Shown here piece by piece: positions 13,365-60,807 of a stretch of DNA of 64,000 nt. The position numbers and the translations under genes are program-made. Within the stretch, counting starts at the first letter, position 1. Every line of letters starts with the position of its first letter. The notes beneath the pieces were generated by a model. It searched no databases. It was not told where the DNA came from and was given only the letters and a program-made list of their open reading frames with translations. The stretch is from Beverwykella pulmonaria (lineage: Eukaryota > Ascomycota > Dothideomycetes > Pleosporales > Melanommataceae), in the NCBI GenBank assembly GCA_001599595.1, contig BCHH01000003.1, forward strand, positions 875,403-939,402, read 5' to 3'.

Positions 13365-16001
13365 ATGGCCATCCAGAAGAAGGTGCGAGTACTCGATTGT
13401 ATGTCCGTGTGAATGCTGATCGGATTCTAGCACGGCAAAGGCCGTCTCGACAAATGGTACAAGCTCGCGAAAGAGAAGGGCTACCGTGCCCGCTCCGCCT
13501 TCAAGCTGATCCAGCTGAACAAGAAGTACGGCTTCTTGGAGAAGAGCAAGGTGCTCATTGACCTCTGCGCCGCCCCAGGCGTACGCACCTCCCCCTCCCC
13601 ACACGAGCAGACCTCGCCCTAATTCATACAGGGATGGTGTCAAGTCGCTGCCGAGGTGATGCCCATGGGCGCGCTCATCGTCGGCGTCGATCTGAACCCC
13701 ATAAAACCCATTCCGCGATGTATCACCTTCCAGAGTGACATCACCTCCGACAAGTGCCGCGCCACCCTCCGCCAGCATCTCAAGACATGGAAGGCGGATT
13801 GCGTCTTGCACGACGGAGCCCCCAACGTGGGCACGGCATGGGTGCAGGACGCCTTCTCGCAGGCAGAGCTGGTGCTGCAGTCCATGAAGCTCGCCACGGA
13901 ATTCCTTGTCGAGGGCGGCACATTCGTCACCAAGATCTTCCGATCCAAAGACTACAATTCGCTCCTCTGGGTTTTCAAGCAGCTGTTCACCAAAGTCGAG
14001 GCTACCAAGCCGCCGTCGTCCCGCAACATCTCTGCCGAAATTTTTGTCGTGTGCCGTGGCTACAAGGCACCGAAGCATTTGGACCCCAAGTTTCTCGACC
14101 CTCGCTCGGTATTCGCCGAACTCGCCGATCCCGCGCCAAACAATGAAGCCAAGGTGTTCAAGCCAGAGATCAAGAAGAGAAAGCGTGAGGGCTACGAAGA
14201 GGGAGACTACACCCAGTTCAAGGAGGCCCCGGTCAGCGAGTTCATCCAGAACTCCGATCCCATTGCGATCCTAGGAAGCCTCAACAAGCTGAGCTTTGAC
14301 CAAGCCCCGAATGGCGACATCGCCATTGCCACCATCAACAAAATGCCCGAGACCACGGACGAGATTCGGAAGTGTTGCGCTGATTTGAAAGTCTTGGGAC
14401 GAGCCGACTTCAAGCGGCTGCTGCGATGGCGGTTGAAGGTGCGGGAGATATTTGGTTTCTCAACCAAGAAAAAGGACGCAGAGGTAGCCGCAGCTGCGGC
14501 TAAAGCGGCTGAAGGAGAGGAAGTGGCGCACATCGAGTCCATGGATGAGGAGATGAAGATCCAGGAGGAGATGGAGCGGCTGAAGGACCAAGACTCCAAG
14601 AAAAAGAAAAAAGCAAAGCGGAATGAGAATGAGAAAAAACAGAAGGAGATCATCCGCATGCAGATGAACATGACGACACCCATGGAAATCGGGATGGAGC
14701 AAGCGGGGCCGTATGGAGAAGACTCCATGTTCGCGCTGAAAGCCGTCGACAAGGCCGGCGCTCTTGCACAGGTTGCCAAGGGAAAAATGGCGACCCTTGT
14801 CCAACAAGAAAAGGCACACGAATCTAGCGACGAAGAGATGGAGTCCGACGACGAAGAGGACCAGCTCGAGCGGGAGTTGGATTTCGCGTACAGCACTTAC
14901 GTGGAAGCGAGATCGGCCAAGGACGCAAAGTACAAGGCCAAACGCGCCCGGAAAGAGGACGAAGATGGCGAGTGGAATGGTTTCTCCGACACAGAAAAGG
15001 CGGAGAGTAGTGACGAGGAACTTGTGGAAGATCATGATAGCGACATAAGTGACGATGAAGAGGGTCCGGACAAGCTGATCACCGATTTGGATCATAACCA
15101 GGGGACACGTAATGGATTGACAAAGCGAGCAACGAGATTTTTCGAACAGGATATCTTCAAGGGCATCGACGGACTGGAAGGTCTCGAAGAGGACGACGAC
15201 GACAGTGGCATCGACGTTGAGGAAGCTGCGAACGAGAATATCGTGAAGTTACCAGAGCGACACAACCCCGAGCCTCCCATGCCCGCGAAGAAAGCAAAGG
15301 TACCTGCTCTCGTGCCAGATGATTCCGAAGATGCGTCATCGGGAGAGGAGGACAATGACGAAATCGAGGAGGTGAAGCGCGATGAGTCTACCTGGGAGCA
15401 AGACGACATACCCATGAAGAACGGCCGCCCGGATATCGACATCATCACCGCAGAAGCCATGACACTAGCTCACGAGCTCGCAACGGGCAAGAAGTCAAAG
15501 CACGATATGATGGACGACAGCTTCAACCGATACTCCCTTCGGGACGTCGACGGCCTCCCCGATTGGTTCCTCGATGACGAAAACAAGCACTCCAAAATGC
15601 AACGGCCCGTCACCGCTGCCGCCGCTGCTGCCATCAAGGAGAAGACCCGCGCTTTCAACGCGCGTCCCATCAAGAAGGTCCGCGAAGCTAAGGCCCGTAA
15701 GAAGTTCAAGGCCGCGCAGCGGCTTGAGAAGCTCAAAAAGAAGAGCGCTTTGCTCGCTGATGACGAGGGTCTGACAGAGAAGGAGAAGGCGCAGAGCATT
15801 AACCGATTGATGAGCAGGGCTATGAAAAAGAAGCCCAAGTCGAAGGTTTCTGTGGTCGTCGCTAGGGGCGGAAACAACGGAATCAAGGGCAGACCGAAGG
15901 GCACGAAGGGTAAATATAAGATGGTGGATGCGAGGCTGAAAAAGGACGTTAGGGCTGAGAAGAGGCTGGCGAAGAAAGCTAAGGGGAGTGGCAGGAGGTG
16001 A
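13365..16001 (+). CDS. SPB1: AdoMet-dependent rRNA 2'-O-methyltransferase SPB1
   Basis: Nucleolar methyltransferase that modifies the A-loop of 25S rRNA and is needed for 60S subunit assembly. Exons 13365-13382, 13431-13580 and 13632-16001 give 845 aa, close to yeast Spb1 (841). The RrmJ/FtsJ domain starts at [20 protein letters not shown]. It has the SAM-binding [17 protein letters not shown], the catalytic Asp in [10 protein letters not shown], the Lys in [11 protein letters not shown], and the Glu in [13 protein letters not shown]. These complete the K-D-K-E tetrad. A DUF3381-like middle region, long acidic/coiled stretches and the C-terminal Spb1 domain follow ([16 protein letters not shown] and the basic end [19 protein letters not shown]). 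The tiny first exon (six codons) is followed by a 48-bp intron. Confidence 0.95.
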
Positions 16002-22803: not shown

Positions 22804-22970
22804 GTCACCTCGATGTTCGCTCATGTGACTCGCTTCCATATTTGTTATCACTACCTTGGCAGGCTCCTACCGTGCTTGGTAAGATCATAGATATTTCTTC
22901 GGTAGCTCCTCCGTAGAATCAATACAACAACGATCATCACTCTCTCTATCTACTCCGTCACATCTCGACA
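22804..22970. repeat. Truncated copy of the ~190-bp solo LTR
   Basis: Matches the copy at 30711-30899 from GTCACCTCGATGTT to the terminal CTCGACA. It shares the CTACCTTGGCAGGCTCCT block and the ATATTTCTTCGGTAGCTCCT block. About the first 25 bases of the TG end are missing, so no target duplication can be scored. Same orientation as the copies at 25375 and 30711. Confidence 0.7.
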
Positions 22971-23964
22971 ACATACAATAAGCAGATCTTCGCAACAAGC
23001 TGCACTATATTTTCATGCCTTGAAGTTCTCACTAAAGACGTTTATAAACCACTTTGAGTGCAATCACAGTACTCTTTGGTGACATCATTATGGATTTAGC
23101 GAATCATGACGTCTGATAGGAATGAATTATTGAAAATACTACGATCGATTAGCTTGCAGGGAGTCCTGGTCCGAGTTAGAGGAGACCTACTCCGCCTCTG
23201 AAGGCACATAAGAGCCGGTCATGATACCTTGTTGCTGGAGATAAGCTATCGAGAGGTGGAAGGAAGAGAAAGTGGGAGGGGCTAGAACAAGACCGAAGCG
23301 AGGCGCCAGGCAAGTGGTGACAGAGGGAAAGCAAAAACAAAAGTAAATTCTTTTACTCAGTCTTAAGTTATTCACATGTAATCGGAAGGCGCAACTACCC
23401 TTGGAAGCTGATCATCGGTCACGTTCAGCAGGCAGCAGTCTGCTCAGTGTGACGTCATTTGTTTTTCCGTACTCCTTAGAAATTCTCACTTTGCCAAGAG
23501 CTGCCTGTGATGCTGGTCTGTTGCCTGTCGTTCTTGTTACCGGGCGGTTGATAATGAGCTTATTCAGCTCACTCTGGTCTCCCAGGAGGGTTTCCACTGC
23601 CGTTTCGATGGCGAGAACTCCTAGGTTCGATGACTGCGACCAAGTTCTTCCGAGCGTACGCTATAATGGTATCATGTCGCATTATAAGATACAGCAACAA
23701 TTTTGCAATGTCACACTGCACTACGGCACATAAAACCGTAAAGTAAATAGGATCCAATAGTATTAAGCATTGCTGCATTTTATAATACTGGGAGCGATTA
23801 GATCGGTCGTGCGGCTCAAGACACATTGTAATATTAACCTTGATCAGATATAGGCATGCTTGAATATTTGGGTTGCCGAGTCGTGTGTTGACACATAGAG
23901 TTGAGTCGTAGTAGGCTGATTACATGACATGATGTTGACATTGAGGGTTTCCAAAGTCACTTAC
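22971..23964. other. Repeat-island sequence, no gene
   Basis: Lies between two LTR copies. ORFs at 23187-23375, 23401-23733 and 23569-23826 overlap each other on both strands and show no domains. Confidence 0.35.
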
Positions 23965-24155
23965 TGTTGAGATGTGACGAAGTAGATAGAGAGAGTGATG
24001 ATAGTTGATATTGATTCTACGGAGGAGCTACCGAAGAGATATCTATAGTCTTACCAGGCACGCTAGGAGCTTGCCAAGATAGTGAATCGCAAACATAGAG
24101 GTGAGTCACATGAGCAAACGTCAAGGTAGCTCATCATGTGACCCACAGGCTGGCA
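23965..24155. repeat. Solo LTR with 5-bp target site duplication
   Basis: A 191-bp element starting TGTTGAGATGTGAC and ending AGGCTGGCA. It is flanked on both sides by CTTAC (23960-23964 and 24156-24160), an exact 5-bp duplication. Internal blocks match the copies at 2351 and, in reverse, 22804, 25375 and 30711. It contains the same short motif twice, GAGTCACATGAGCAAAC and its neighbour GCAAACATAGAGG. The TG...CA ends and 5-bp duplication are the signature of LTR retrotransposon integration followed by LTR-LTR recombination. Confidence 0.82.
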
Positions 24156-25374
24156 CTTACTATACTGACTAATAACTCGCGATCCCAACACTCTAGGTGC
24201 AAGATTTCAACTGCATTGAGAAGCGGTCTTTTACTTCTTCTGTGATGGGCTAGGTCCAATGCACATGCCTAAGTGTGGGCTGGAAAGCAGTGTGGTACCG
24301 CTTCCTGCATAAATACCGACTACGCAAACTGAATCGCGTTGATTCGACTTGTGGATACCTTTTGAGATAGTGGTTTAGAGCATGTAGTCGTGCCTACGAT
24401 TCATTAGGATCTAAACCCTTACATCTCCCACGATCTGCAACACTGCTATGCCAAAACTGAGCCCTCTCTAGTAATGACAAGCTATGTACGAGAGATATGT
24501 GGTTAATTATAACTACTAGACTAATAGGTATATTCTTCTGTAACACCAAGAGAAACTCCCCACAGGCACTGAGATCTCTCAACGTAATCGTGGCTCATTA
24601 GTTGTATATTATTAGACTCTAACTTGCCATCGCAATCATCAGTCGTTCAACTGTGTATTTGATGCGCCGTCTTGACCGTCCATGTCTTTCCCCATTCGAG
24701 CAAAAATATTTCGTGTCTGGTACTTTATCTCTGCTTTTTACGTCTGCCCTGCTTTCCCTATTAAATACGTCGCGCATGCCCAAATTTGTATAATGAGCGC
24801 CTACCTACTTCCCTTCTTGTCCATTTGTACTACAGCTCAGCAGTGCCAGATTTGACATCGGCAGTTGAAGTACTGAACATACTAACCTTGTAAGCGCATG
24901 TGATGTCGCTGGGGCCGCAATTATGTCTTTGCTCATCGCTCTACGGCCTCCTTGAACAATTTCCACCCCCTCTCTTCTTACAAAGACCGGCGATATAATA
25001 TGTTCATCCCCCCATGTACTCCAATTTAATCAAAGGTAGTAACGGGCGTTGCGACAGATAGTTTTTAAGCCGAGGATACAAATACTAATCACATGGTTAT
25101 ACATTACATACATCATACACATGGTCATACCCCTTCATCACAATCTGCCCTCACAGTAAAGAAATTGGAATAGTTAACTTACTTTCCATAGACTAAATCC
25201 TCACCTTGGAGCCAGTTGATAGGGGAACTGACTTGCTGAATGTACGAGGGGTCGCTAAATGTGCTACAGATTACTGCAGATGCAAGGTCACAATGCACTA
25301 ATAACAAGGGTTATTAGTGGGCCTGGCACAATGGCCTGTCAAGAGACCGGGCGGGCTTCAGTTAAAATGAATTG
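24156..25374. other. Repeat-island sequence, no gene
   Basis: AT-rich, without a supported open frame, between two solo LTRs. Confidence 0.35.
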
Positions 25375-25566
25375 TGCCGGCCTGTGGGTCACATGATGAG
25401 TTGCCTCTGTGTTTGCTCATGTGACTCACCTCTATGTTTGCGTTCACTATCTTGGCGGGCTCCCAGCGTGCTTGATAAGGCTGTTGATATTTCTTCGGCA
25501 GCTCCTCCTCTGTAGAACCAATACACCGATCATCACTCCTTGAATCTACTTCGTCACATCGCGACA
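25375..25566. repeat. Solo LTR with 5-bp target site duplication
   Basis: A 192-bp element starting TGCCGGCCTGTGGGTCAC and ending ATCGCGACA. It is flanked exactly by AATTG (25370-25374 and 25567-25571). It lies in opposite orientation to the copy at 23965 and aligns along its length with the copy at 30711. Confidence 0.82.
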
Positions 25567-29008: not shown

Positions 29009-29015
29009 TATAAAG
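29009..29015 (+). promoter_or_regulatory. TATA-like box of the Kex2-repeat precursor gene
   Basis: TATAAAG lies 121 bp upstream of the ATG at 29130, followed by a pyrimidine-rich leader (CTCTTCCTACCCCC). Motif and spacing fit a strongly expressed fungal gene with a short 5' leader. Confidence 0.45.
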
Positions 29016-29129: not shown

Positions 29130-29615
29130 ATGAAGTTCTCCACACTTCTTTCCATTCCACTCCTCGCCAGCGCCGTCTCGGCTGCCGTGCTGCCCGCCGC
29201 CCCCGTGGCGGCTGATATCGTCGTCCGTGAGGCTTTAGCCAGCCCTCCGCATAAGACTGTCAAGCGTGAGGCGTTCGCCAGTCCTCCACACAAGACCGTT
29301 AAGCGCGCCGCGTGGAAACGAAGCCCTCCCCACAAGACCGTCAAGCGCGAGGCCAGCCCGCCTCACAAGACTGTCAAGCGCGAAGCAAGCCCGCCTCATA
29401 AGACCGTCAAGCGTGAGGCCGTCGCCAGCCCACCTCACAAGACTGTCAAGCGTGAGGCCAGCCCACCTCACAAGACTGTCAAGCGTGAGGCTAGCCCACC
29501 TCACAAGACTGTCAAGCGCGAGGCCAGCCCGCCTCACAAGACCGTCAAGCGTGAGGCTGTCGCTAGCCCACCACACAAAACCGTTAAGCGCAGCCCGCCT
29601 CATAAGACTATCTAA
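29130..29615 (+). CDS. Kex2-processed multicopy peptide precursor (KEP/RiPP-like), eleven SPPHKTV/I repeats
   Basis: Single exon, 161 aa. The ATG at 29130 (CACCATGAAG, good context) opens a signal peptide MKFSTLLSIPLLASAVSA, then a short pro-region ending DIVVR. Ten copies of SPPHKTV, each followed by KR, and a final SPPHKTI at the C-terminus make eleven. KR is the Kex2 site, and the final copy needs no cleavage. Most units begin with EA, EAVA, EALA or EAFA right after KR. These are X-Ala dipeptides of the kind removed by Ste13-type aminopeptidase in alpha-factor maturation. One spacer, AAW, interrupts copies 2 and 3. Predicted product: a secreted heptapeptide made in multiple copies. It lacks the Tyr typical of dikaritin cores and the Trp/Cys pattern of alpha pheromones. 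Function unknown. Confidence 0.93.
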   Translation: MKFSTLLSIPLLASAVSAAVLPAAPVAADIVVREALASPPHKTVKREAFASPPHKTVKRAAWKRSPPHKTVKREASPPHKTVKREASPPHKTVKREAVASPPHKTVKREASPPHKTVKREASPPHKTVKREASPPHKTVKREAVASPPHKTVKRSPPHKTI

Positions 29616-29893
29616 ATAGTCTCCCACAAACGAAAGCGAATAGATCACCAAGTGGCTGGGTGGCTGGCAAGTAGACTGAGAGTATTTGGGATCAGAGACG
29701 GATGCTGGAGTGAGCTAGGAATATGCGACTCCTGTGATCACTGAAACAGGACCGTGTACCATGGTGGTAGAAAGGAGTGAATTGTTGAATATAGGGTATT
29801 AAAACACAGTTTTAGTTCTGTTTTAAATGGATGTAGTGTTTTGGAACCGATTTTGTCTTCTCTGTGTAGTATATTTAATAAGTTCAACTTTTC
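29616..29893. other. 3' region of the peptide-precursor gene
   Basis: Presumed 3' untranslated and downstream sequence. A plus frame from 29827 runs into the palindrome and is not supported as a gene. Confidence 0.35.
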
Positions 29894-29978
29894 TACGCGG
29901 GTGTTTTGATGTCGTGTTGCTAGCGAGTCATAGGCCGGATGGGACTCGCTGGCAACACAACATTAAAACACCTGCGTA
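29894..29978. repeat. 36-bp imperfect palindrome (long inverted repeat)
   Basis: Arm 29894-29929 pairs with arm 29943-29978 around a 13-base centre. The arms differ at four positions, all transitions (for example GATGTC versus the complement of the other arm's AATGTT-type sequence). Arm ends read TACGCGGGTG and CACCTGCGTA. It is about 280 bp past the stop of the peptide-precursor gene. It could be a foldback/MITE remnant or a strong RNA hairpin. Confidence 0.7.
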
Positions 29979-30710
29979 TAAAAGCCACCGACCCAGAGCG
30001 AAGCCACAAGGACAAAGCAAAAGCAGGGCTAGCCGAGATGCAGGAGTGGAATAAGCACAGGCAGAGCACCGACGGCAACCACGGAGTAACCTTAATCCAA
30101 CCAACCGAACAAAACAACTAACTAGAACATGGCTAGACCTAGAATAGGCAAAACGGTGGCGAAAACACGAAGAGAAACAACATGGCGCGAAGCATGGGCG
30201 AATAACCCTCACCCGCTATACGGTGAAAGCCCAGTCAACAGTACTATTCCTTATGCGCACTGAAACAATAGGACTGAATAGATGGCTAACTATCCGACAC
30301 GTCCCTAGCGCTACAAAGGAATGCACATGTAGGTAGCAAAAGAACTAGAAAATGAGACAGTCGACAAATACCGGCAAGCAGACAGATTATCGATGTAAGA
30401 GCGAAAGAGCAACAACGACGAAGCGACTACCTAAATCCTACCCTAGTCCCTAGACTCTCCCCTTCTTCCTCCTCTATCACCTAAATTATCTTCGATTCCT
30501 CTTTCTTCTTGATTTCCCTTATATGCAGGGGCAAGTGCGACCGGACCGTCGGTCGATTATTAAGGAAAATAGCTCTATACGCTCAAGAGCGTACGAAAAG
30601 GATATAAAGCATACGAAAGGTTTTACTCGTAGATAGATTTCTCCTTAGGCAATAGTATGCATGGCTCCAGCTAGGGCGAGTACCAGACGTTAAATAGATT
30701 AAATAATAAT
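29979..30710. other. Repeat-island sequence, no supported gene
   Basis: A short ATG frame at about 30129-30263 (begins MARPRIGKTVAKTRREATW) looks faintly like the region before RNase H in fungal LINEs, but it is too short to call. Confidence 0.3.
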
Positions 30711-30899
30711 TGTCGGCCGGTGGGTCACATGATTAGTCACCTCGATGTTTGCTCATGTACCTCACTTCCATATTTGTTATCACTACCTTGGCAGGCTCCT
30801 GCCGTGCTTGGTAAGACTATAGATATTTCTTCGGTAGCTCCTCCGTAGAATCAATACAACAATCATCACTCTCTCAATCCACTTTGTCACATCACGACA
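30711..30899. repeat. Solo LTR with 5-bp target site duplication
   Basis: A 189-bp element starting TGTCGGCCGGTGGGTC and ending ATCACGACA, flanked exactly by ATAAT (30706-30710 and 30900-30904). The terminal TGTCG and CGACA are inverted. It is the best-preserved reference copy for the family in this window and aligns with 25375-25566 end to end. Confidence 0.85.
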
Positions 30900-32762
30900 A
30901 TAATAATATTAAGTTCAACTTGATATTACGTATGGCGATGTAGGGTTAGTCCCTGGCCACCGAGGTACTGCCGCGAAGGGACCTGGCTGTTGTTCTCTCC
31001 CTTACCCTGCGAGGTAAGTGAGAATGTTTTACAGAAAGATATTTGCTGTTCGGAGTCTAAGTAGACAGTCTTCTCGTCTTCAATCAATGGGTACTTAGGG
31101 ATCATGCCCCGGGGCATATTGGGAAGCTTTTCCTAGATCAGCTGACAGAGATCCTGGGGCGCTAATATACCGTATGATATCACAACGTTGCGTACTCATC
31201 TTGGTGCGCTGGTAGAACTGGTTAACTAGGAAGTCTCCGGCTTGTTTCCTAAGCTTGCGCACAACCCCTGAGGTCTGGCTTCTACACCTGGCGCATAGTT
31301 TGGATACGCAACGCGCCTCAATTTTTGATTCGGAGAATCTTATTTGCTAGCCCATTACTCCCTGAGGTAAGTCTAAGCATTAAAACAGAGTTCCGAGGCC
31401 TAGAAAGCAGCTAGCATTGCACTTACGAATACGTTTTCTGGCGAGAAAAGTTTCGTTTACCCACAAAATTTAAGATCTCTTCCAGCAGAAGTAGGGTTAT
31501 ATTAGGATGAAGACCGAAGTCTTCATTTAGAGGTTATGTTTTCTAAAGTTAAAGATGTCATTGCTAAGAAAGTGTGACATTGCAAACATCAATTGAAGCT
31601 ACTGAACTGAGTATGTAGTTATGCGCTCCACGTATCCCTAGATTCTCCCCGCACGCATTAGCTAATTTAGTTAAGAGATGTTCCTGACAGGCGTTTCGAC
31701 TATTGATGAGAAAAAATCTCCTTACAGAACTAAAGACAGTCATCATGTCACTCGTCTCGTTTACCATCGGAAGACGTGTCGCAACGCGCAATACTCAATT
31801 ATTGGAGGAACATAAACTCCCACGCCATTTCTGTCGTGGAATAATATTCCCTTTAGTAGCGGCCTGCCGTAATAAATGCTATAAAACATAAAGAGCTAGT
31901 TATTAAATATTAATCTGTAAGGGTTTTCTGATGGGGGAAATGATCATTTAGCGACTACGTTGTTCTAAGAGGGATCAAGCCAGAGCAGCTTATAAGCCGT
32001 TTGACCTTGATCAGCTAGCTACATTTAGGACAAGCCTAAACTGTTACATAATCTCTACAGAAGAATCAACAAAGCCACAATATTAATTAATAGCTTGACA
32101 TCTAGATTTAGGGAATAAATTAGCATAAAAAACAGAGCACTAGGGTGATAGGCCTAAGAGAGACTTCTAACTACGCTCTAGCGCCCCAGTCATGTGAATT
32201 CACTCCCTATTTCCGTCGATTTGATGTCCATTGCAACAAACAAAATTCGCTTCGCGCTGGATGGAACACGCCTTAACGCCACATCTTTAAATTCTTAAAT
32301 TCAGGATTTGCTAATGATTTTGATTCCTGTTAACTAGATTTTGTACTGCGCTGGGTTGTGTGTGGTCTGATGTCCTACGCCTATCAACTTCCTTTCCCTC
32401 CTACACCCTCCACGGTTTGGTGACGCATTTATAAGTATTGTTATTTTACGAAGCCGGGTGCTAGCTATCAACGGAAGTCTCTATAGGGAACCGAAAAAAC
32501 AAGACATCACTATGACGGTGCGTGTCAAATAACTCATGGAGGTTCTGTGGCGTGAAAGAAAACAATAAAACCAGCAAGCCAGTCGGTAGGTGTGATAGCT
32601 TCCCATCACTTTGACAAGGTACTTTGAGCAAAGGTGAAATTGAAAGGTTCTTTAGATTATATACATATTCAGAAAATAAAGCCGCTATATATACAGGCAT
32701 TTCGGCATTGTAATCACTACAGTAAGAAGGTACCAAGGGGTGTTCAACTAGCTTTACGCAAA
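30900..32762. other. Long AT-rich stretch without a supported gene
   Basis: About 1.9 kb. ORFs at 30926-31117, 31564-31791 and 31703-31891 overlap and carry no domain I recognise. Probably decayed mobile-element sequence. Confidence 0.35.
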
Positions 32763-59674: not shown

Positions 59675-60807
59675 ATGGGGACAGCTCTAAAAACGTGGGG
59701 TGAGTTCCTCCTCCTCAGTCCTCATCATCCTCATTTACAATAGTCTCTGAAAAACCCCACTAACATCTCCCAGAGCTCGAGAACTCTATCTCGCTCGTCG
59801 ACCCCACCCGCGACGCGCTCTACACCTATTCCAAGACTTCTCAAAAGACTATCGACGATGCGCGCCCATGGCGCACCGACCCGCACTACTTCACCTCCGT
59901 CCGCATTTCCGCCGTTGCCCTGCTAAAAATGGTCATGCACGCACGATCGGGGGGTTCAATCGAAGTCATGGGCCTGATGCTCGGCAAGATCGAAGCCAAC
60001 ACCTTCGTAGTCACAGATTCGTTAAGGCTGCCTGTAGAGGGCACAGAGACCCGCGTCAACGCGCAGGACGAGGCGAACGAGTACATGGTTGCGTTTCTGG
60101 AGCGCGCTAGAGAGCAGGGACAGATGGAGAATGCCGTCGGCTGGTACCATTCGCACCCTGGGTACGGCTGCTGGCTCTCTGGCATCGACGTCAGTACGCA
60201 GAAGACGCAACAGCAATTCCAAGACCCTTTCGTCGCCGTAGTCATCGATCCGGACCGCACGGTGTCTGCAGGCAAAGTCGAGATCGGGGCTTTCCGCACG
60301 TTCCCCGAGTCCTACGTCGCGGAGAAAGAGAAGGCCGCGAAGGCTGGCGGTGCAGCGGCGGGCGTGGGCGAAGACGGCTTCCAGACCATACCCCTGGGAA
60401 AAATCGAGGACTTCGGCGCTCACGCAAATCACTACTATGCCATCGACGTCTCGCACTACAAGTCCAGTCTCGACACCAAACTCCTCGAGGCGCTCTGGAA
60501 CAAGTACTGGGTGGGCACGCTCTCCGCATCCCCGCTGATTTCCAACCGCGACTACGGAACGAAGCAGATCTCGGATTTGGCGCGCAAGATGCAGCAGGAA
60601 AACACCAATATCAAGCGCTTCAAGGGCGGTTCGTTTCACGGTGCAGGGGCAGATACGAAGGGGCAGTTGGGCAAGCTGGGTGCTGCAGGGAGCAAGATCT
60701 CGAGAGAGGAGGAGATGGGTTTGCTGGCGGCGAAGGTCAAAGAGAAGGTGTTCAACTTAAGTGGGGAGGGGGAGACGGGTGAGCAGGAGGTCGAGATGAA
60801 GACCTGA
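59675..60807 (+). CDS. CSN5: COP9 signalosome subunit 5 (JAMM deneddylase)
   Basis: Catalytic subunit that removes NEDD8 from cullins. Exons 59675-59699 and 59774-60807 give 352 aa. The N-terminus has [19 protein letters not shown], then [20 protein letters not shown]. The catalytic Glu is in [11 protein letters not shown], and the JAMM motif is [16 protein letters not shown] (H-x-H-x7-S-x2-D). [20 protein letters not shown] and [13 protein letters not shown] follow as in all Csn5 proteins. [14 protein letters not shown] distinguishes it from the proteasome subunit Rpn11. Tiny first exon with 74-bp intron. Confidence 0.95.

Follow-up and report, generated by a model that had tools for sequence, protein, structure and literature searches.

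The Kex2-processed repeat proteins (KEPs) of the Pezizomycotina include a family whose core, SPPHKT, is one of four new conserved cores named by Le Marquer et al. in 2019 (PMC6339444). In that survey's description, the core is repeated between Kex2 sites in proteins with predicted secretion, the criterion for a conserved core was occurrence in four or more species and in more than one genus, and repeat number generally varies between species. Linear, minimally modified KEP peptides have been detected in agaricomycetes, and few KEP peptides have a known function, according to the account given in PMC9769878. Here we analyze an SPPHKT gene in a 64,000-nucleotide stretch of the Beverwykella pulmonaria genome (GCA_001599595.1, contig BCHH01000003.1, here C3, positions 875,403 to 939,402; the window). 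Cleavage of its precursor very likely yields eleven near-identical peptides of seven residues each. We lean toward reading it as the precursor of a short, linear, unmodified secreted peptide that would be made by the alpha-factor route and would most likely serve as a conserved non-mating signal. Two other kinds of precursor resemble it: ascomycete alpha-pheromone precursors of the Ste13 type (signal-like start, KR sites, X-A spacers, and repeated short cores in common) and dikaritin/ustiloxin-type precursors of ribosomally synthesized and posttranslationally modified peptides (RiPPs; signal-like start and Kex2-separated repeats in common).

The locus, at 904.5 kb on C3, is a clean KEP gene, single copy by the searches run, with a core that is already published. 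The open reading frame (ORF) starts with an ATG at 29130 in a CACCATG context, ends with a TAA at 29615, has no in-frame stops, and contains no intron donors of the three forms scanned. The definition of PMC6339444, applied here as worded in that paper, asks for at least three similar fragments between KR, RR, or KK sites that make up at least 15% of the protein; the precursor has eleven cores and 11 KR sites, with 47.8% of the protein in cores, and the repeated SPPHKT core places it in the family of that name. Its features are listed below; the AAWKR piece comes from repeat analysis, the units and the pro-segment from repeat and spacer analysis, and the ORF from translation and repeat analysis.

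29009..29014, +, TATAAA box, 121 bases before the ATG (motif scan; consensus match only)
29130..29615, +, precursor ORF (KEP), 161 amino acids plus stop, single-exon reading
29130..29183, +, signal-peptide-like segment, residues 1 to 18, hydrophobic, VSA end before A19 (hydropathy; conserved in homologue P0001)
29184..29228, +, short pro-segment AVLPAAPVAADIVVR with V-R end, preceding unit 1
29241..29261, +, core unit 1, SPPHKTV, after VVR and spacer EALA
29280..29300, +, core unit 2, SPPHKTV, spacer EAFA
29307..29321, +, AAWKR piece, preceding unit 3
29322..29342, +, core unit 3, SPPHKTV, no spacer
29355..29375, +, core unit 4, SPPHKTV, spacer EA
29388..29408, +, core unit 5, SPPHKTV, spacer EA
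29427..29447, +, core unit 6, SPPHKTV, spacer EAVA
29460..29480, +, core unit 7, SPPHKTV, spacer EA
29493..29513, +, core unit 8, SPPHKTV, spacer EA
29526..29546, +, core unit 9, SPPHKTV, spacer EA
29565..29585, +, core unit 10, SPPHKTV, spacer EAVA
29592..29612, +, core unit 11, SPPHKTI, no spacer, at the C terminus and not followed by KR

Signal cleavage after VSA is presumed here from the -3,-1 rule. The original prediction, made from the DNA sequence alone, had described eleven near-identical units with a single V-to-I change in the last, and repeat analysis found exactly that, ten units with V as their seventh residue and a final unit with I. Its statement that the units are separated by KR and mostly preceded by EA or EAVA held for most of them; the departures are unit 1, which follows VVR, units 3 and 11, which lack EA, the extra AAWKR piece, and the EALA and EAFA spacers. 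The tally is EALA once, EAFA once, EA five times, and EAVA twice, so that KR immediately precedes units 3 and 11, an X-A spacer stands between KR and each of the other units from unit 2 on, and unit 1 is reached from VVR via EALA. Counted from the nearest basic residue, spacers are only 0, 2, or 4 residues long and all of their dipeptides (13 of 13) are X-A, the pattern expected for Ste13-type trimming. The predicted Kex2-type repeat precursor is supported.

A degenerate SPPHKT DNA pattern, with Ser as AGY only, had 11 matches in the 45.6-Mb assembly, all at 29130-29615, and none in the reversed control, which exceeds chance; a protein search with E values up to 1 found no second SPPHKT locus in the assembly. 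A scan of the window for Kex2-repeat frames returned the precursor gene and one weak row, which consists of three shared four-letter words in an antisense frame of the same gene. Nuclear transition protein 1 (Pfam) was rejected for the precursor, being below the cut-off with no stretch passing alone, and a single PDB match (E = 1.5) was taken as chance. The peptide had been thought undescribed, which does not stand, since its core is the one named in PMC6339444. In a full-text set of 5.39 million open papers SPPHKT was found only in Le Marquer et al. 2019, close strings otherwise occurring in three papers unrelated by title, and the strings PPHK, SPPH, and PHKT are absent from the main text of Umemura 2020 (PMC7329392), whose types G-7 or G-9 might conceivably include this core. 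No functional test of SPPHKT was found among the open KEP papers listed, searched by titles and abstract starts, with subscription papers and preprints outside that scope. A core that is retained across genera, and in many copies, makes the search for its function worthwhile.

Codon use among the units points to constraint on the peptide. As had been claimed from the first inspection, codons vary freely: Pro2 is CCG, CCA, or CCT, Pro3 has four codons, His is CAC or CAT, Thr is ACT or ACC, and the Arg of the KR site is CGT or CGC. Comparison of every core with every other gave a total of 165 synonymous and 10 nonsynonymous differences among the eleven (pS = 0.60, pN = 0.011). The minimum number of changes, counted from the variable columns of the core alignment, is 11, only 1 of which is nonsynonymous against a random expectation of 76%; P is 4.8e-6, and 2.9e-5 when transitions receive a 4:1 weight. 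Unlike the core, the second spacer pair varies (LA, FA, VA, and VA). The strong selection proposed at the outset is thereby supported as purifying selection on the SPPHKT core. Because units of one gene can exchange sequence, the test speaks for constraint and not for age.

A search restricted to proteins with exact words in common, out of 5.8 billion, returned a single relative, P0001 (135 amino acids, E = 1.1e-22), which comes from a JGI source and a 948-base contig and so is probably metagenomic. If its second Met is taken as the start, P0001 carries a leader that resembles that of the precursor, MKLTTLLSIPLLATAISAAIIPAAPVEADLAVR, and five units, four of them SPPHKTI and the last SPLHKTV, and the counterpart of the pro-segment AVLPAAPVAADIVVR is AIIPAAPVEADLAVR. 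The leader, the V-R site, the KR-EA frame, and the cores are all kept in this homologue. Because P0001 too has V-R rather than K-R before unit 1, this site is probably cut. The last unit deviates in both genes, the window's array being V-rich with a final I and that of P0001 I-rich with a final V; homogenization within each array that is weaker at the end would give such odd last units, as far as two genes can suggest. An alignment search returned 6 proteins at E values up to 10 and added P0002 (E = 1.4e-7), a protein of 201 amino acids whose leader differs and whose SPPNKTAPF repeats come behind KR-EA or KR-EV. We left P0002 out as unproven, since it may reflect either convergence or a distant relation, and took P0003 to P0006 (E = 3.6 to 9.9) as chance matches.

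The genome encodes candidates for the enzymes that an alpha-factor-type route would use. Searching the genome turned up a single match to the kexin P domain, within an 800-amino-acid frame that has a C-terminal hydrophobic stretch, and two DPPIV_N matches. One DPPIV_N frame has a hydrophobic segment after a hydrophilic N terminus, an arrangement resembling a membrane anchor that we take to be Ste13-like, and the other has a signal-like start. S10 carboxypeptidases gave 27 exon matches, none of which is assigned to Kex1 in particular. The processing route is well supported by the anatomy of the precursor and would run as follows. The chain would enter the secretory pathway by the alpha-factor route, kexin would cut after each KR and some activity after the V-R before unit 1, and a Kex1-type carboxypeptidase would take off the KR left at the C terminus. 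The spacers EA, EALA, EAFA, and EAVA would then be trimmed two residues per step by a dipeptidyl peptidase of the Ste13 type, which would halt at Ser-Pro-Pro, and up to eleven unmodified copies of SPPHKTV/I would leave the cell.

The mature N terminus, Ser-Pro, would by itself suit a dipeptidyl peptidase. Since Aspergillus oryzae DppIV is reported in PMC8399179 to be unable to hydrolyze the Pro-Pro bond of Xaa-Pro-Pro peptides, Ser-Pro-Pro looks like a built-in stop, and with such a stop spacers of 0, 2, or 4 residues would all yield one product. By analogy, we infer that the stop may also be valid for the Ste13-type enzyme of B. pulmonaria. As a prediction the Pro-Pro stop is simple, and it could be extended to other precursors of the Kex2/Ste13 kind.

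The genome holds a separate gene that resembles an alpha-pheromone precursor. A protein search with pheromone repeats gave four tandem weak matches on contig C4 (E = 1.04 to 9.56), which lie in the following frame.

L020:1306-1758, contig C4 at about 2.507 Mb, probable alpha-pheromone precursor, 150 amino acids, five HC[R/K]YPGQPC cores (frame anatomy)

The E values alone are weak, and the gene was identified as pheromone-like because of its tandem five-core frame. The product is secreted-looking and has basic sites as well as spacers of the X-A/X-P kind; 20 of 20 dipeptides are X-A or X-P in the four spacers that separate its five cores, the last spacer following VER. The stretch before the first core, which scored 8 of 11, was left out of this count as it runs into the signal region. 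Two-cysteine cores are known among ascomycete pheromones, as described in PMC6339444. The HC[R/K]YPGQPC core strings were not found in the open full-text literature, and we regard the gene as a new, probable alpha-pheromone precursor. Two DNA patterns for pheromones found nothing, with 0 matches in the genome for W-C...GQ-CW and 0 forward matches against 1 in the reversed control for a Pleosporales PYG pattern. A match to the alpha-pheromone receptor STE2 (E = 5.2e-77) lies at 1.523 Mb on C3, about 620 kb from the KEP gene. With this separate gene, a single processing route appears to serve two distinct multicopy peptides in the fungus.

That the KEP gene is itself the sexual alpha-pheromone precursor of the fungus is suggested by its multicopy plan, its common route, and its X-A dipeptides after Kex2 sites (with 2 of the 11 units spacerless), and is nevertheless very unlikely. 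Its core has no Cys, and so not the two cysteines of alpha-pheromone precursors, and it lacks their GQ motif; five HC[R/K]YPGQPC cores are encoded by another gene elsewhere, and BLASTP between the two precursors gave only short matches around KREA (E = 1.7). The remark that the peptide lacks pheromone hallmarks was thus well founded, and it is probably not a mating pheromone. An improbable, though less remote, explanation is a RiPP precursor whose core is cyclized or otherwise modified, in a dikaritin-like or new class. The precursor has the same plan as ustiloxin-type precursors, and a P450, an FAD/NAD-binding enzyme, and a 2OG-Fe(II) oxygenase are encoded some 11 to 22 kb away in the window. 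Dikaritin precursors have a UstYa/DUF3328 gene close by; the survey of Umemura 2020, as reported in PMC7329392, counted a DUF3328 gene near 22% of KEP genes, at a mean of 3.09 genes, and nearly never near pheromone KEPs. Searching for UstYa (PF11807) gave 58 exon matches in the genome, 56 of them over the cut-off; the closest ones found on C3 lie around 348 kb and 4.25 Mb, more than 500 kb from the KEP gene. The core differs from dikaritin/ustiloxin-type cores in having no Tyr, the X-A spacers fit the trimming of a linear peptide, and the nearest gene with a recognized domain (26.8-27.9 kb) is a protein kinase. The predicted lack of UstY genes nearby therefore held to 500 kb; as for tyrosinase, none was found among the 18 of 72 window ORFs scanned with Pfam, and no family-specific search was made. 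Several UstYa matches lie close together, for example at 2.944-2.949 Mb on C4 and 3.681-3.684 Mb on C2, and several dikaritin-type clusters may be present in the genome.

Two further explanations differ in the target. A host-directed or virulence-related secreted peptide, processed in the same way but aimed at a plant or animal host, would suit the setting of the gene, which is rich in repeats, poor in long ORFs, and mostly of lower GC, although the gene's own kilobase has a GC of 0.52 and the strong core constraint is unlike the fast evolution typical of many effectors; we consider it unlikely, with roughly one chance in five. An antimicrobial or predator-directed peptide would agree with a small His/Lys peptide in many copies and is quite improbable, with seven residues giving no amphipathic length and no Cys. 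A non-mating extracellular signal, by which SPPHKTV would act outside the cell, is in our view the most likely role, ahead of a host-directed one; the signaling role taken alone is put at slightly under even. Several points weigh against a linear, unmodified signal. Such a role requires a receptor, and we know of none for an SPPHKT peptide. Unit 1 has no dibasic site (VVR), the SPLHKTV that ends P0001 is without the Pro-Pro lock, and an unlinked modifying enzyme among the 58 UstYa exon matches elsewhere could act on the core. As presented in PMC9769878, knockout of kep genes in Coprinopsis cinerea had no detectable phenotype, and the authors suggest a role for kep genes in interaction with the biotic environment. 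More specifically, and only as a tentative suggestion, SPPHKT could be a second, non-mating peptide hormone of the Pezizomycotina, alpha-factor-like, autocrine or paracrine, with its own receptor, in which SPP was selected as a trimming stop that gives one mature form whatever the spacer length. The split from the probable mating pheromone and a precise predicted mature form with masses make the peptide directly testable; the calculated [M+H]+ values of the unmodified forms are 765.4254 for SPPHKTV, 779.4410 for SPPHKTI, 965.5051 for EASPPHKTV, and 1135.6106 for EAVASPPHKTV.

The window contains 72 stop-to-stop ORFs of at least 150 amino acids, many of them overlapping, and 18 neighbors were scanned with Pfam, 7 of which had a domain over the cut-off. 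These seven, and one gene named from its best PDB match, are the following.

0.9-2.0 kb, M35 protease
6.8-7.6 kb, P450
13.6-16.0 kb (13623-16001), Spb1 rRNA methyltransferase
16.9-17.8 kb, NAD/FAD-binding enzyme
26.8-27.9 kb, protein kinase
40.6-41.6 kb, glutamine amidotransferase
45.0-45.9 kb, 2OG-Fe(II) oxygenase
59764-60807, COP9 signalosome subunit 5 (best PDB match)

The repeat-rich island in which the gene was said to sit is real. Genome-wide, the dispersed repeat at about 29929-30338 gave 32 match rows including the window itself, the others being 69 to 98% identical and the copies thus many and diverged, and 77-nucleotide repeat arms at 24.0 and 30.8 kb flank the precursor gene on both sides. 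Beside the dispersed repeat, at about 29889-29929, there are short matches in reverse orientation, which suggest that a small inverted-repeat element ends there. A family of inverted repeat arms of 38 to 77 nucleotides occupies 22807-25566 and 30703-30903 of the window, on both sides of the KEP gene.
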